Assembly (NCBI GenBank): GCA_027886925.1
Contig: JAPCJN010000061.1
Span: forward strand, 1 to 11,895
Origin: Nitrososphaerota archaeon
GTDB lineage: Archaea > Thermoproteota > Nitrososphaeria > Nitrososphaerales > UBA183
Direction: 5' to 3'
Length of the DNA stretch: 11,895 nucleotides
Part shown: positions 3,330 to 11,739 of the stretch, piece after piece
Layout: each line of letters opens with the position of its first letter
Position numbering within the stretch: position 1 is the first letter of the stretch
The notes under the pieces: generated by a model
What the model was told of the DNA's origin: nothing
What the model saw: the letters and a program-made list of their open reading frames with translations, nothing else
The model's database searches: none
Position numbers and translations under genes: made by a program

Positions 3330-4304
3330 TTGAAAATCTACGTTACGTCAAACGAGATTCCTGAGGAGGCAATCAAGATACTCAGCAAGCTTGGCGATGT
3401 CAAAGTAAATCCAACCAGCGGCCCTCCAAAGAGGGAAGACTTGTTCGCAGAAATCCATGACGCGGACGCTATCTTGTGCCTCCTTACCGAAAAGATCGAT
3501 GGCGAATTGCTGAATAACGCAGGGAGACTCAAAGTCATCGCAAACATGGCGGTGGGCCATGACAACATTGACTTGGCTGAAGCCACAAGGAGAGGTATCG
3601 CCGTTACGAATACACCGGGGGTCCTTACCGACACGACGGCCGATACGGCGATGGCGCTCATCCTTAGCATAGCTCGAAGAATCGTCGAGGCTGATCGGTA
3701 CGTTCGCGATGGAAAATGGACGATCCCATGGAGCCCGATGACGATGGTAGGGACTGATGTCCATGGAAAGACCCTTGCAATATATGGTCTTGGACGTATT
3801 GGGGAAGCTCTCGCCAAACGAGCGCGAGGCTTCGACATGAAGATCATCTACGCCAGCGCAAGCAGGAAGCCCGAATTGGAATTGAAATACGAGATGGAAT
3901 ACGTTAGTCTGGAAGAGGCTCTAGGCCGTTGCGATTTCTTGTCAATACACGTGCCGCTGCGACCTGAGACGAGACATAGCATCGGTGCGCGTGAACTCTC
4001 ACTCATGAAAGAGACGGCCTATCTAATCAACACGTCAAGGGGCCAAGTGGTGGACCAAGCAGCGTTGATTGAAGCCCTTGGCCAGCACAGGATAGCGGGA
4101 GCGGGGCTCGATGTCTTTGAGGAAGAACCGGTTCCCCAGAGCAGCCCCCTGCTAGGGATGAACAAAGTAGTGCTCCTACCACACATCGGAAGCGGAAGCA
4201 AGGAGACCAGGACTTCAATGGCTGTCATGGCGGCGGAGAACATCGCCTCGGCCTTGAAAGGGATGCGGCCTCCCAATCTTGTTAACAGGGATGTCTTCAG
4301 ATAA
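3330..4304 (+). CDS. Glyoxylate/hydroxypyruvate reductase (D-2-hydroxyacid dehydrogenase)
   Basis: A 324-residue D-isomer 2-hydroxyacid dehydrogenase close in plan to archaeal GyaR and mammalian GRHPR. The Rossmann motif GLGRIG is at 153-158. The catalytic set is R237 (INTSRG), E266 (LDVFEEEP) and H285 (LLPHIGSGS). The N-terminal substrate domain has the conserved NMAVGHDNID at 72-81. After the second Rossmann strand the sequence is YASASRK, with no acidic residue, which suggests NADPH rather than NADH. It should reduce hydroxypyruvate to D-glycerate and glyoxylate to glycolate. The only usable start is TTG 3330: an in-frame TGA lies at 3306 and no ATG or GTG lies between. It is followed 8 bases later by glycerate 2-kinase, which supports the hydroxypyruvate reaction. 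Confidence 0.9.
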   Translation: MKIYVTSNEIPEEAIKILSKLGDVKVNPTSGPPKREDLFAEIHDADAILCLLTEKIDGELLNNAGRLKVIANMAVGHDNIDLAEATRRGIAVTNTPGVLTDTTADTAMALILSIARRIVEADRYVRDGKWTIPWSPMTMVGTDVHGKTLAIYGLGRIGEALAKRARGFDMKIIYASASRKPELELKYEMEYVSLEEALGRCDFLSIHVPLRPETRHSIGARELSLMKETAYLINTSRGQVVDQAALIEALGQHRIAGAGLDVFEEEPVPQSSPLLGMNKVVLLPHIGSGSKETRTSMAVMAAENIASALKGMRPPNLVNRDVFR

Positions 4305-4312
4305 GCAATATC

Positions 4313-5725
4313 ATGCGTAGGCCGACGCTACGAATAGAAAATTGGCCTAGGGGCATCCGTGAGACCTCGGACATACGCGATGCGCTAATAGCTGCACTGA
4401 GTGTCGCAGAACCTGAGACAATCCTGAAGCGTGCGCTGACAGTGGAAGGGTCAACTCTCCGTGCTGGACGGAGGGCGTATCAGCTTTCCAAATTTGACCG
4501 AATAATTGTGATTGGAGGAGGCAAGGCCGCGGGGGGAATGGCGGCCGGACTGGCGAAGGTACTTGGCGACAAGGTTACAGCGGGAATCGTCAACATCCCA
4601 GATAGCCTGGCGCCGCTCCCCCGATGCTCGCGCATTGAGCTACATCGTGCGACCCACCCGATTCCGGGTTCAGAGGGGATCGAAGGCGTCAAGATGATGC
4701 TTGAGCTCGTGGGCAAGCCGATGGCCTCAGATCTTGTCATCTGTTTGCTATCGGGAGGAGGTTCGGCACTCCTTCCGATGCCCGCAAAGGGCCTGACACT
4801 TCCGGACATACAAAAGGTCACGAAGCTCCTCCTAAGGTCTGGGGCAGAGATTCACGAAATCAACCTTGTCCGCAAGCATCTTTCCGAGATTGCGGGAGGT
4901 AGACTCGCGGAGAGGCTTTACCCGGCCCAGGTCCTTTCTCTCATAATATCAGACGTGGTCGGAGACAATCTCGACTCTATCGCTTCCGGTCCGACCGCCC
5001 CTGACCCGTCCACGTATCTCGACGCGCTGGCAGTCCTCGCAAAGTACAACCTCGTTGGCGAGGTTCCAGCTAGTGTGCGGAAGACACTGGACGATGGAAT
5101 GCTGGGCAGAATCGAGGAGACACCCAAGGCGAACTCGAAGGTGTTCGGTCGGGTGCACAATTTGGTCGTGGGCAGCAACGAGTTGTCCTGCCGTGCGGCG
5201 GCCGACCTTTTTCGCAGAAGGGGGTATGCTACGACGATTCTCACAACGAGAATCCAGGGAGAGGCTAGTGAAGTGGGCAAGCGGTTTTCTGGTCTCCTGT
5301 TGAAGATGCGCGAGAAGTCGTCGCCGTCTCGGCCCGCGTGTATCATTGCGGGTGGCGAAACGACTGTGACAGTGCGGGGAAGAGGTATCGGTGGAAGGAA
5401 CCAAGAGCTCGCCCTATCCGTGGCCCTCGGGATTGCCGGCCTCGATGGTGTCCATTTTGCCTCCATGGGGACTGATGGACTGGATGGAGGAACCGATGCA
5501 GCGGGAGCTATCGTCGACGGCGGGGTAATCGAGCGGGCACTCAGGAAAGGATTAGGTGCAGACTCGTATATTCAAAGGAACGATTCCCACGCCTTCTTCA
5601 AGAAAGTGGGAGGCTTGATCATGACTGGGGCCACAGGGACCAACGTGAACGATATCATGATAGCCATAGCAAGCGACGTCGGGCGGGCTAGACGTCGGCC
5701 CGACCGTCGTTCAGCGGCCAGTTGA
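4313..5725 (+). CDS. Glycerate 2-kinase, MOFRL family
   Basis: A 470-residue class II glycerate kinase with an N-terminal DUF4147 domain and C-terminal MOFRL domain. Motifs in order: VIGGGKAAGGMAAGL (66-80, with K71), LLSGGGSALL (145-154), EINLVRKHLSEIAGGRLAE (182-200), ISDVVGDNLDSIASGPTAPD (212-231), AGGETTVTV (346-354), GGRNQELAL (360-368), GTDGLDGGTDAAGA (386-399) and TGTNVNDI (441-448). Archaeal members phosphorylate D-glycerate to 2-phosphoglycerate, feeding the lower glycolytic pathway. It is co-transcribed with the upstream reductase (8-base gap) whose product is its substrate. The arginine-rich tail (RARRRPDRR) runs into the 3' end of the convergent aminotransferase gene, overlapping by 15 bases. 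Confidence 0.93.
   Translation: MRRPTLRIENWPRGIRETSDIRDALIAALSVAEPETILKRALTVEGSTLRAGRRAYQLSKFDRIIVIGGGKAAGGMAAGLAKVLGDKVTAGIVNIPDSLAPLPRCSRIELHRATHPIPGSEGIEGVKMMLELVGKPMASDLVICLLSGGGSALLPMPAKGLTLPDIQKVTKLLLRSGAEIHEINLVRKHLSEIAGGRLAERLYPAQVLSLIISDVVGDNLDSIASGPTAPDPSTYLDALAVLAKYNLVGEVPASVRKTLDDGMLGRIEETPKANSKVFGRVHNLVVGSNELSCRAAADLFRRRGYATTILTTRIQGEASEVGKRFSGLLLKMREKSSPSRPACIIAGGETTVTVRGRGIGGRNQELALSVALGIAGLDGVHFASMGTDGLDGGTDAAGAIVDGGVIERALRKGLGADSYIQRNDSHAFFKKVGGLIMTGATGTNVNDIMIAIASDVGRARRRPDRRSAAS
5675..5704. repeat. GC-rich hairpin and direct repeat at the convergent gene ends
   Basis: GTCGGGC (5678-5684) and GCCCGAC (5698-5704) form a 7-bp GC stem with a 13-base loop. The octamer GACGTCGG also occurs twice, at 5675-5682 and 5691-5698. 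The structure sits just before the overlapping stops of two convergent genes and is still inside the kinase reading frame. It could slow or end transcription from either side; neither strand has a T run. Confidence 0.4.
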
Positions 5726-6844
5726 GGCCTTTGCGAACGAATCGACGAAGTAGTTCGCTTGCTCCTCAGTCAGGTTGCCAAAGTGACCGACCCGGAGCAT
5801 CTTCGTCCCATTCTCTCCCAATCCCTTGGCGACATCTATGTTGTACCTCTCTCGAAGGACCCTCTGGACACCAGGAGCAGCCCCGTCTTTCGTCCAGACC
5901 CCGGTGACTGTATCTGCGCGATGGGCGCGTTCCCTGACCACCATTGTATTCCCAGCACTCGTGACTCCCTCTCTGATGATCTCGGCGTTCGTGTGATGCC
6001 TTCGCCACCTCGCGTCGAGCCCCTCCTTGTCAAGCTCCTGGAGAGCCACCTTGAGCGCTTGCATAAGCTGCACGGCCGGAGTCGCAAAATATCCGCGGGG
6101 ATCGTCCATGTATGGCTTCCACCGCAGGAGGTTGAGGTAGTAGCCGCGTATCGAATCCTTCCTCCTCTCCATCTGCTCGAGCAGCTCCCTTGAGACAGCG
6201 ATGAGGACTGTCCCTGGCGGGGCGGCCAAGGCCTTCTGTGAACCCGTGAAAACGACATCGGCGCCAAGCCTGTCAAAGTCGAGTTCGAGGCCGCCCACTG
6301 AGCACACGCCGTCGACCACAGCCAAGGAGTTCGAGTTCTTGGCTTCCTTCACAATCTCCTTGATTGCGTTGCAGGTTGTCGAGCTGGTGTCAACATGAGT
6401 GACAAAGACCGCCTTGAATTTGTCCGCTGCCAACTTCCTTCGGACTTCGTCCGGGTCAGCACACACGCCGAACTCGGGACGGATTTCTTCCACAGATGCT
6501 CCATAGGATTTGTTGATCTCGACCATCCTGTTGGCGAAGTATCCCGTGTTGAGAGCAAGAACCTTGTCGCCGGGAGAGACGATGGAGGTGACCGCGATCT
6601 CCATAGCGAGGGTACCGCTTCCTGTTAGGACGAACTGGTGTCCGTTGCTATTCCTGAATGCTTTCCTCGCGAGCCGGACCACCTCGGAGAACTCCTTCGC
6701 ATAATCGAGGTCCATGTGCCCTACTTGCGGCTGCGACATCGCCTGTCTGACTCCCATCGAGAGATTGGTCGGCCCCGGGACCATCAACAATCGTCCGCCC
6801 TCTCCTTCTTTCGGTGCAACCGCTTTCGCAGCCTCTTCCATCAT
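5711..6844 (-). CDS. Class V aminotransferase, serine/alanine-glyoxylate type
   Basis: A PLP-dependent aminotransferase of the AGXT/SGAT family, 377 residues from ATG 6844 (384 if the GTG at 6865 is used). Counting from the GTG: substrate loop MVPGPTN at 28-34, GSGTLAME at 82-89, Asp185 in AVVDGVCSVGG for the PLP ring, Lys211 in FTGSQKALAAPPG for the Schiff base, and Arg358 in MLRVGHFGN for the substrate carboxylate. Members move the amino group of serine or alanine to glyoxylate, giving hydroxypyruvate or pyruvate plus glycine. A box TTAAAGAG at 6869-6876 fits ATG 6844 as a leaderless start but would lie too close to the GTG. Next to the hydroxypyruvate reductase and glycerate kinase, serine-glyoxylate activity is the best guess; exact substrates cannot be read from sequence. 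Confidence 0.9.
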   Translation of the reverse strand: MMEEAAKAVAPKEGEGGRLLMVPGPTNLSMGVRQAMSQPQVGHMDLDYAKEFSEVVRLARKAFRNSNGHQFVLTGSGTLAMEIAVTSIVSPGDKVLALNTGYFANRMVEINKSYGASVEEIRPEFGVCADPDEVRRKLAADKFKAVFVTHVDTSSTTCNAIKEIVKEAKNSNSLAVVDGVCSVGGLELDFDRLGADVVFTGSQKALAAPPGTVLIAVSRELLEQMERRKDSIRGYYLNLLRWKPYMDDPRGYFATPAVQLMQALKVALQELDKEGLDARWRRHHTNAEIIREGVTSAGNTMVVRERAHRADTVTGVWTKDGAAPGVQRVLRERYNIDVAKGLGENGTKMLRVGHFGNLTEEQANYFVDSFAKASTGR

Positions 6845-6868
6845 AGCCGGAGATGGCAAAAACACCTA

Positions 6869-9064: not shown

Positions 9065-11350
9065 CTAGGAGGCGGGCTTCCTGCGACTCATCGCAAGATA
9101 GCCCGTCGCGATGATGAAGATTACGGCCACCGCCGCGACTCCATAGAGTGTCGTCGAGCTGACTCCTCCGGTTAAGGATGTGCTTATCGATGTGGTTGTG
9201 ACCGTCGTGGTCGCTCCTGGAGCGCCCGATGCCGTGACCGTCGTGGTCGTGGTCTGGCCCGATGAACCCGTTGGTTGGGGCTGCAGGGTCAAAGCTACGA
9301 TGTCACCTGGGATTCCAGTGGCCCACGAGACAAGTCCAGCCGTAATCGGGACTATGATTTCTTCTTGCCCGGTTGCTGTCGCTCCTATCGATGAGAGGAC
9401 GTTAAGCGGACCACCGATGTAGTAGTCCTTGAGTAGCGCGCCTGTCTGGGCATTGAGCATTATGACGTCTCCCGATGACAGCGTCAGATAGAGGATGTTG
9501 CCGCTGACGGTCATGCCGCCTCGGTATCCTTGAGCTGGGATGAAGTGAGACCAGGCCATCTGTCCGGTCGCCGTGTCGATGGCCTCGACTGTAGCGTTCG
9601 TGTTAGGACCAGCGAATCCATAAGTACATGCCCCTGGGTGAGCAGCACAATACCCGCCGGGAACAGGCAAGAACGCGAATCCTGGGTTCGTCTTGTAGTT
9701 GGTCGCGTTCAACGGGATGTAGACGAGGTAGATGGGCACGTTATTGGAAACGGTGTAGATGTAGTTCGTGACCGGACTGTACGCGCTCACAGACTCGAAC
9801 GTTACGGCCCATGGGTACATGATCGTGGGCTGGAGGTTCGGGTTCATGAATGCCCGCGTCATCTCCGTCCTGTTGAGTGGGTCGAGATAGTAGCAGAAAT
9901 GGCACCTGGGCAATATGCTTGTTGGTGGCGTCCAGCTCCAGATGAACGCGCCCGTCACCGCATTCAGTTCGAACATGTAGCCGGCCTTGCACGACTTCCA
10001 CACCACTTGCGTGTTCACCCCGTTGATGGTCTCGTTGCCGATACCTTGCCACCAGGAGCAGTCGTAGTCCCACAACTCGTGAGGTCCGCTCTGCAAGCCC
10101 CAGACCCACTGGCCGGTGGTCTCGTTGATTGCCAAGACGGAGGCGGACCAAAGGTCAGGGCCGTTCATGCAGGCACTGGTGTACGGATCCCTGTTATTGG
10201 TGTCGACGAACGCTAAACCAGCACTAGGGCCTGTACCTAGGATCCAAGGTCCGCCCCATCCGGCGGCGGTCGATCCTGTAGACCCGCCTGCATCGGCTGC
10301 TGCGCAGGCTGGACTCTGGTTGACATAGCCCCAGTCGTCATAGAGGGTCGAGTTGAGTACGGCGGGAGAGAGTGCCTTCAGGTCGACTATGGTGTTGGCC
10401 CCTCCGTATCCGCCAGGACTGTCTGGACCGGCGCCCTTGAAGATGAGGGCGTTCTTCATTGTCGCTATCTGTTGGGCATCCCAGTTCGGATTCAGCGGTA
10501 GGTTACCGCCTGGTTGGGGAGGTGTGCAAAACGCGGTCCACATCAGCGTTGGTGGGTTTACGAGGATGTTCCATCCACGGTACATGCACCTGCCCGTGTT
10601 GGCTGCGGAGCCGCTCATGACGGATGTGATAACGATGCCTCGTTGCTGGTCAACCAAGAGGTTGGTTGGAGTACCGCCTTCGACACAGTTAGGGTTGTTT
10701 CCTGCTATCGTGACGCAGCCGGTGAAGTCCGTGAAGTTGAGGATGATCTTACCGGTCAAAGCATTGAGGGCATAGACCTTTTGGTCAGAAGCTGACAACC
10801 AGAACGTTGGGGTATGGTTGAACAGGGATGTTGTGAACGCCACGTCCCCGTCGTGGGTATGCAGGGAGAGTGTAACACCGTGCGATGCGGTGCTGTTAGG
10901 GAAGATTGGTAGCACGGTCGTCCAGAGTACGTTCCCGTTGGCCGCGTTGAGGGCGAATATTTGCATGGCCTGGGTGATAAAGTAGACGGTGCCGTTGATA
11001 ATCAGCGGAGCGGTGTCCACGCCCAGACCTCCCGCTACATCCAACAACGCCGTCGGGTGGATGGGAAGCGGGAACAGCCAGTTCAAGCCCAGGTTCTGGA
11101 TGTTCGAGCTGTTGATCTGGTTCTGCGGGTTGTAGTCCCAGTTGAATGCGTTGCCATTGGTGGCTGCCCAGTTGGCTTCGGCCTGCGTCAGCGGGCTCGC
11201 TGCCGAGACCGGTGCCGCTGCAGATGGCGAAGACGAGTTGGGCGCGGCGCTCGCGGGGTTGATGAGCACCGACGCACCCACTCCCGACATCAGGAAAAGA
11301 AGAGCGATTACGACTGCTCTGATTCTTGCCTCATCAAGAGGCTTCGCCAT
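9065..11350 (-). CDS. Secreted, membrane-anchored PQQ-type quinoprotein dehydrogenase
   Basis: A 761-residue eight-bladed quinoprotein beta-propeller. Residues 11-36 are a Sec signal peptide ending in ASAA. Propeller blade repeats of the type 'VYALNALTGK' occur throughout (VYALNALTGK 192-201, LAINETTGQWVWG 406-418, FELNAVTGAFIW 460-471, EAIDTATGQMAW 589-600, IMLNAQTGALL 630-640). The metal-site segment is GPHELWDYDCSWW at 422-434: D428 is the expected catalytic/metal Asp and D430 the extra Asp seen in lanthanide-dependent enzymes (XoxF type). GGPWILGTGPSAG at 366-378 matches the segment that carries another metal ligand region. A Thr/Ser-rich linker (698-734), one membrane helix (about 735-754) and a basic SRRKPAS end anchor it to the cell surface. 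About a dozen N-x-S/T sites could be glycosylated. No CxxCH haem motif is present, so electrons must go to a separate acceptor. Likely oxidises alcohols, aldehydes or sugars outside the cell; the substrate cannot be told. Confidence 0.85.
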   Translation of the reverse strand: MAKPLDEARIRAVVIALLFLMSGVGASVLINPASAAPNSSSPSAAAPVSAASPLTQAEANWAATNGNAFNWDYNPQNQINSSNIQNLGLNWLFPLPIHPTALLDVAGGLGVDTAPLIINGTVYFITQAMQIFALNAANGNVLWTTVLPIFPNSTASHGVTLSLHTHDGDVAFTTSLFNHTPTFWLSASDQKVYALNALTGKIILNFTDFTGCVTIAGNNPNCVEGGTPTNLLVDQQRGIVITSVMSGSAANTGRCMYRGWNILVNPPTLMWTAFCTPPQPGGNLPLNPNWDAQQIATMKNALIFKGAGPDSPGGYGGANTIVDLKALSPAVLNSTLYDDWGYVNQSPACAAADAGGSTGSTAAGWGGPWILGTGPSAGLAFVDTNNRDPYTSACMNGPDLWSASVLAINETTGQWVWGLQSGPHELWDYDCSWWQGIGNETINGVNTQVVWKSCKAGYMFELNAVTGAFIWSWTPPTSILPRCHFCYYLDPLNRTEMTRAFMNPNLQPTIMYPWAVTFESVSAYSPVTNYIYTVSNNVPIYLVYIPLNATNYKTNPGFAFLPVPGGYCAAHPGACTYGFAGPNTNATVEAIDTATGQMAWSHFIPAQGYRGGMTVSGNILYLTLSSGDVIMLNAQTGALLKDYYIGGPLNVLSSIGATATGQEEIIVPITAGLVSWATGIPGDIVALTLQPQPTGSSGQTTTTTVTASGAPGATTTVTTTSISTSLTGGVSSTTLYGVAAVAVIFIIATGYLAMSRRKPAS

Positions 11351-11373: not shown

Positions 11374-11381
11374 TCTTTTAT
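11374..11381 (-). promoter_or_regulatory. TATA-like box of the quinoprotein gene
   Basis: ATAAAAGA on the minus strand lies 31-24 bases before ATG 11350, inside the A-rich GAAATAAAAGAG. The spacing matches the other leaderless genes in the window; there is no Shine-Dalgarno sequence in front of the ATG. Confidence 0.6.
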
Positions 11382-11412
11382 TTCTTTCGCCAAGATTCTG
11401 GGTTTTGGTAAC

Positions 11413-11739
11413 TCAACTGGTGCTTGACCTCTCCCTGTTACCACTGGACTTCATCGCGTTCTGAATCACCGTCACCCAAGGGTTCTCGCCCTCGACGATT
11501 ATCCCCGCCGCTTCCGCTGGAGTCTTCCCGTCTAGACCCATATGGGGCCTGAAGTAGTTGTGGTAAATCTGCATCCCCTTCAGGATAGGCGTGTCCTTCA
11601 TCTTCAGGCCCCGCATCGTCTTCTCTAACCTTCTCCACGATATGAAGGATTCCATTAGCCGGTAGTAAGCCAGTCCACACCATGTGTTGAAGACCGACGG
11701 CTCTGCATCTGTTTGATTTGAAAGAGAGGGACATAAATA
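11413..11739 (-). mobile_element. IS transposase, C-terminal remnant
   Basis: The open frame from 11739 reads DAEPSVFNTWCGLAYYRL, then MESFISWRRLEKTMRGLK, MKDTPILKGMQIYH, NYFRPHMGLDGKTPAEAA. The last part is a hallmark of archaeal DDE transposases: 'K-x-M-R-G-L-K' followed by the helix 'YHNYFRPHMGLDGKTPAEAAGI', in which the DDE glutamate lies upstream. The DDE aspartates and the N-terminal two thirds are missing: a TGA closes the frame at 11740-11742 and nothing transposase-like lies between it and the window end. It is inactive, and sits just upstream of the quinoprotein promoter. The IS family (IS6-like) is a guess. Confidence 0.75.

Follow-up and report, generated by a model that had tools for sequence, protein, structure and literature searches.

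Quinoprotein dehydrogenases of the PQQ type have been reported from thaumarchaea, namely marine heterotrophs and the Gagatemarchaeaceae (PMC7300363, PMC10640624). As far as the available text of these reports goes, they resemble the gene examined here, which lies in an 11,895-nucleotide stretch of DNA (the window), and its relatives in having archaeal hosts, many copies that are often adjacent, signal or transmembrane segments, a DYD or other DxD motif in a subset and a reported pqqC, and in lacking a Cys-Cys pair. In the accessible part of PMC7300363, the vicinal Cys-Cys is described as absent from marine thaumarchaeal quinoproteins, and DYD is recorded in 4 and other DxD in 5 of 21 sequences, so that the novelty attached by the original prediction to a DYD motif in an archaeon does not hold. 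The literature search, which was based on partial texts and was not aimed at the HxH or Cys pair described below, turned up no demonstration of lanthanide use by an archaeal quinoprotein, and comments on the motif in PMC7300363 only. Within the wider set of archaeal proteins compiled here the clade of the window protein is distinguished by Asn386 and by the lack of an acid-Gly loop, whereas 81/184 proteins have the loop together with Gln386.

Two bacterial systems are also comparable. With the XoxF and ExaF-PedH lanthanide alcohol dehydrogenases the window protein has in common, by homology, the propeller family, the WDYD motif and the Asn and Trp columns; unlike them it has neither the Glu ligand nor the vicinal disulphide, carries Lys for Arg and, at position 519, Glu for Asn or Asp, has a putative C-terminal anchor and stands separate in the tree. 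E. coli Gcd shares with it D-x-D, the Lys, Glu at 519, the lack of a vicinal disulphide and a His near that site, but column 386 differs, and with 86.4 bits the window protein stays below the cut-off of the glucose quinoprotein (Gcd) model TIGR03074, which is 832.65. Gcd possesses a multi-span N-terminal membrane domain, whereas the window protein has one prominent N-terminal hydrophobic segment only. A further quinoprotein-like gene was noticed on a Paraburkholderia plasmid (L029:742-2817), between an F420 reductase gene and a gene for an LLM-class flavin-type oxidoreductase.

The gene occupies positions 9065..11350 on the minus strand, an ATG-initiated frame of 761 aa that confirms the reported ORF, and is assigned to the PQQ-type beta-propeller quinoproteins by Pfam/NCBIfam profile and phmmer matches. 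PF01011 reaches 106.8 bits against a gathering cut-off of 26.7, placing the protein among the PQQ propellers, and thaumarchaeal paralogues fall in the same clade, in agreement with its description as an archaeal quinoprotein; the alcohol quinoprotein model TIGR03075 scores 105.4 bits, below its cut-off of 480.05. Profile scans of the protein with Pfam/NCBIfam-type models found no haem domain, as had been predicted. The host, an uncultured archaeon, probably comes from soil. A contig scan, by which close relatives only were reachable, returned five related loci, all in two archaeal MAGs: three in Thaumarchaeota palsa_1368 (best-segment identity 57-63%) and two in archaeon MAS3.bin69 (47-48%). 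These are the nearest named genomes, and an aminotransferase of palsa_1368 (G001) is 66% identical to the aminotransferase neighbouring the quinoprotein gene in the window. In an order-level search the window profile was matched in 35/151 genomes, with more than 900 bits in G001, G002 and G110 only; a phylum-wide search with A2 gave mainly short repeat matches and served only to place one G001 gene. TIGR03075 is matched by 17 distinct open frames of G001 (E <= 0.001), some by a short piece only, and seven G001 frames are of the same kind as the window quinoprotein. The latter is a member of a strongly conserved, multi-copy archaeal family; proteins of this kind have been published before, but the site is unusual. 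Among the frames scanned in the window itself there was no partner gene of the quinoprotein, no cupredoxin and no transporter. Elsewhere in the window, genes resembling glyoxylate/hydroxypyruvate reductase, glycerate 2-kinase and class-V aminotransferase lie together (3330-6865) and perhaps form a glycerate/serine/glyoxylate unit; a frame for a MazE/AbrB-type antitoxin and, after it and overlapping with it, one with a PIN domain (1553-2274) are likely a toxin-antitoxin pair; and immediately 5' of the quinoprotein gene a short frame (11413-11655, minus strand), which lacks a Pfam match, looks by eye like a transposase end.

Both termini of the protein carry a hydrophobic stretch. By hydropathy the most hydrophobic 19-residue segments begin at about residues 12 and 735, corresponding to a putative N-terminal signal or anchor (residues 12-30; 11261..11317, minus strand) and to a C-terminal segment (residues 735-753; 9092..9148, minus strand) that is followed by a basic tail. 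The latter would serve as the C-terminal anchor originally predicted, and the Thr-rich linker that accompanied it in that prediction was also found: of the 41 positions from residue 695 to 735 (9146..9268, minus strand), 16 are Thr. The archaeal-looking promoter is less firm: an A/T-rich, TATA-like stretch, AAATAAAAG, does lie 25-33 bases 5' of the ATG (11375..11383, minus strand), and a TAAATA-like box precedes several of six paralogues, but the box is a weak one and both readings were made by eye. The quinoprotein C-terminal tail TTLYGxAA...GY.A.RGRKP also closes a 367-aa frame that gave no Pfam match and is situated among quinoprotein copies (L001:12281-13384; L001:9983-12223), as well as a 422-aa frame in G110, and may represent a shared surface-anchoring tail.

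The WDYD motif (residues 427-430; 10061..10072, minus strand) contains the putative catalytic Asp428 and, two residues later, Asp430, and is the sole D[YFW]D in the protein. It is aligned by phmmer with the WDYD of XoxF 6dam, and a profile-profile alignment brings it into register with the same motif in the bacterial references; together with the presence of both Asp residues in 120/120 listed sequences, this indicates that the motif is homologous and not a chance match. The listed sequences are the window's own protein (P0001) and 119 others out of 354 hits of the first protein search, and ten residues are identical in all of them: D428, D430, N386, W365, K455, E519, H164, H166, C431 and C454. 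The alignments with XoxF match D428 and D430 to its pair of Asp, N386 to its Asn, W365 to its Trp and K455 to the Arg/Lys position. Trp365 (10256..10258, minus strand) is the counterpart of the Trp in GTTWG of the bacterial enzymes; Asn386, in an Asn385-Asn386 pair (10193..10198, minus strand), aligns with the Asn metal ligand, a column that appears to be kept; Lys455 follows Cys454 (9986..9991, minus strand) at the bacterial Arg/Lys site; and Glu519 (9794..9796, minus strand) takes a position that is Asn or Asp in the bacterial alcohol references but Glu in E. coli Gcd. A larger set, of 184 proteins, was assembled from 49 fetched frames, 24 of the first 120 sequences and 111 from a second search (526 hits, 120 of them listed, less 9 shorter than 550 aa); near-identical members remain in it, among them most of the proteins with GxG and a single G002 gene represented by two frames. 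DxD is present in 160/184 of this set. The altered sites include GxG in 12 proteins, ExE in 4 and QxG in 2 (P0224-P0234, L069, L053, L007, L009, L087, L088, L049, L051). Counted separately, 13 of the same 184 have another residue in place of Lys455 and 16 in place of Glu519; such site-altered archaeal quinoproteins may be non-catalytic or altered propellers.

The Glu metal ligand of the lanthanide enzymes is missing. In XoxF the metal Glu is carried by the loop that corresponds to residues 243-254 (10589..10624, minus strand), where the window protein reads SVMSGSAANTG, with zero acidic residues in 243-253; the Glu position is occupied by Ala250 or Ser248, depending on the register, in which the MAFFT and profile alignments differ. 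The Glu ligand that the original prediction proposed to look for is absent in either register. Asp or Glu occurs somewhere in this loop in 59/120 listed sequences, at shifting positions, and in the wider set 81/184 combine an acid-Gly loop with Gln386 and 6/184 have Glu386 without the loop. The window clade accounts for 38/184, with Asn386 and no acid-Gly loop, and another acid is found in that segment in 22/38. That acids seem to change place between archaeal subfamilies hints that a cation site is kept, but the shift is not clean, since Gln386 also occurs without the acid-Gly loop in 19/184.

The vicinal disulphide is likewise missing, there being no CC anywhere in the window protein. Roughly at the bacterial Cys-Cys site lies H164-x-H166 (10853..10861, minus strand), present in 120/120 listed sequences and, in the wider set, in 155/160 DxD proteins versus 4/24 non-DxD proteins; two of the five DxD proteins without it are truncated frames. 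A different pair of cysteines is conserved, Cys431 (10058..10060, minus strand) and its proposed partner Cys454, which are both present in 171/184 and both absent in 13/184. That the two are never discordant (0/184) suggests a disulphide between them. When mapped on the tree, the joint loss of HxH and DxD corresponds to 2-3 independent events and that of the Cys pair to 2, neither of which is significant.

A quick tree was computed from 68 rows after the removal of 6/55 matching frames that covered less than 70% of the profile. The seven references group together (SH-aLRT 99), 59 archaeal-family rows are separate from them (SH-aLRT 93) with the distant rows L056 and L060 outside, and the window protein belongs to a 26-row clade (SH-aLRT 100) with thaumarchaeal paralogues. 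An AU test that joined the window clade to XoxF5 and a further two alcohol enzymes with DxD rejected this grouping (p 9e-67; the group was picked after inspection of the tree, and long branches are present). The affinity to XoxF/ExaF that had been envisaged is thus not borne out by the phylogeny.

Genes relevant to the cofactor were sought in related genomes, with a divided outcome: the original prediction had proposed a check for pqq synthesis genes, and PqqC-like matches were obtained in 8/10 genomes, 2 of them above the cut-off, but PqqB was matched in 0/10 and PqqE exceeded its cut-off in 0/10, and 14 control genomes likewise gave neither above the cut-off and so supplied no positive control; incompleteness of the genomes may also play a part. 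A long PqqC match is present in five of the six nearest genomes (G001, G002, G107, G110 and G140). The PqqC-like gene adjoins a quinoprotein gene in G001, G002, G107 and G110, with a gap of less than 300 bases or, in G107, an overlap with a quinoprotein frame that contains one stop; in G140 it lies about 1.5 kb from the quinoprotein gene. G116 has a PqqC fragment only, at the end of a contig. For G016 and G030 the distance from the PqqC match to the closest listed quinoprotein of the same contig, where any is listed, is at least 13 kb, and G005 and G063 gave no PqqC match. The PqqC-like protein of G001 shares 41.7% identity with an annotated Rahnella PqqC, from which the PqqC-like proteins (eight rows less L069 and L070, which were wrong frames) differ at several Tyr, Lys and His positions that we take to be catalytic in PqqC. 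If PqqB and PqqE are indeed lacking, PQQ would have to be imported or to come from a different pathway. According to the available text of PMC10640624, pqqC was probably gained in this section of the phylum.

With regard to the electron acceptor, cupredoxins are encoded in 6/6 genomes examined and, as the original prediction suggested looking for, some lie close to quinoprotein genes. Within 5 kb of such genes are 4/9 cupredoxin matches in G002 (about 0.5 expected, p 0.001) and 3/20 in G001 (about 1.0 expected, p 0.07), both values counting neighbours as independent, which adjacent cupredoxin matches are not; the linkage in G001 is weak by itself. For c-type cytochromes a single match was found, in 1/8 genomes. 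The available part of PMC13374868 describes marine heterotrophic relatives without haem C synthesis genes, and that of PMC7300363 proposes that electrons go to blue copper proteins or the quinone pool. As to the substrate, two G001 quinoprotein arrays are flanked by SBP_bac_1 solute-binding proteins. Three permeases next to the arrays were scanned, of which one is above the Pfam cut-off and two slightly below. Members of the SBP_bac_1 family often bind sugars.

On the basis of what the sequences show, namely the family assignment, the residues under conservation, the lack of the Glu and of the disulphide, and the gene neighbours in relatives, the best explanation, to which we give an even chance, is a surface sugar or polyol dehydrogenase of a thaumarchaeon-like archaeon, with a PQQ-type cofactor and cupredoxins as electron acceptors. 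The enzyme would be held at the cell surface by its C terminus and would oxidise a sugar or polyol outside the membrane. Asp428 would act as the base, Lys455 would hold the quinone of the PQQ-type cofactor, and a cation would be bound by Asp428, Asp430, Asn386 and possibly Glu519. Electrons would pass to membrane cupredoxins and not to c-type cytochromes, and a Cys431-Cys454 disulphide would probably be formed. The resemblance of Lys455, Glu519, DxD and the His near the disulphide site to E. coli Gcd counts in favour of this reading. On the other side, the Arg of the bacterial CCDxxNRG segment, presumably a PQQ carboxylate ligand, was not seen in the window protein.

The metal in the proposed dehydrogenase is the subject of the strongest alternative, according to which the enzyme is lanthanide-dependent, Asp430 being the extra ligand and the lost Glu being replaced by Glu519, by an acid near Asn386 or by water; we regard this as rather unlikely. 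In the accessible part of PMC11996626, D-x-D is taken to indicate lanthanide binding and is used by itself in this way on metagenomes, and the strict conservation of the motif (120/120 listed, 160/184 in the wider set), the retained Asn column and the acids that seem to relocate in archaeal subfamilies (81/184 and 6/184), which hint at a retained cation site, would be consistent with lanthanide dependence. The extra Asp is not, however, the specific mark that the original prediction took it for: in the same alignment WDMD is found in E. coli Gcd, and Gcd, which has the motif, can complex Ca, Mg, Zn and Sr, as stated in the available text of PMC11996626, which predicts a facultative use of lanthanides. 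D-x-D is no proof of a lanthanide. The absent Glu ligand, the uncleanness of the acid shift (19/184) and the separation from the three DxD references in the AU test, with its post hoc group and long branches, also speak against it. The lanthanide enzyme originally proposed thus keeps its D-x-D and Asn but not its Glu or its place near XoxF/ExaF, and lanthanide use is a legitimate hypothesis of low probability, not a conclusion.

It is improbable, in our estimate, that the protein is an empty quinoprotein, that is, a propeller that retains the fold but is non-catalytic or differently loaded, with a non-PQQ cofactor or none. The failure to find PqqB and PqqE in the 10 genomes, the absence of the vicinal disulphide, the Glu and the NRG Arg, and the clearly changed site of some relatives (GxG in 12/184) would fit such a protein, but they contend with ten site residues invariant in 120/120 listed sequences and with the PqqC-like genes that adjoin sister quinoproteins. 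A match to TIGR04528, 'acido-empty-quinoprotein group A', at 97.7 bits is far below the cut-off of 650 and says little, as the same model scores higher on XoxF5 (289 bits) and Gcd (218 bits). Membership of the XoxF type was rejected on the missing Glu, the missing vicinal disulphide, the profile score and the tree, and the BamB-like, non-PQQ placement that the original prediction had weighed was rejected as well, TIGR03300 giving 29.2 bits against a cut-off of 285.2.

Tentatively, and with more doubt than for a surface sugar or polyol dehydrogenase as such, these proteins may form an archaeal quinoprotein branch with a rebuilt site, in which HxH over the cofactor stands in for the vicinal disulphide, the loops of D-x-D and of the Lys are linked by a Cys431-Cys454 bridge and the cation site does without the classical Glu. 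The metal in such a site may be a rare earth or a different one, bound in a manner not found in XoxF, and the enzyme may use PQQ from neighbours or a variant finished by the linked PqqC-like enzyme. An archaeal family with a strict D-x-D and without the Glu ligand or the vicinal disulphide offers a test of how far the D-x-D rule reaches: if its members use rare earths, lanthanide biology would extend to the archaea, and if they use Ca or Mg, counts of lanthanide enzymes based on the motif would be too high.
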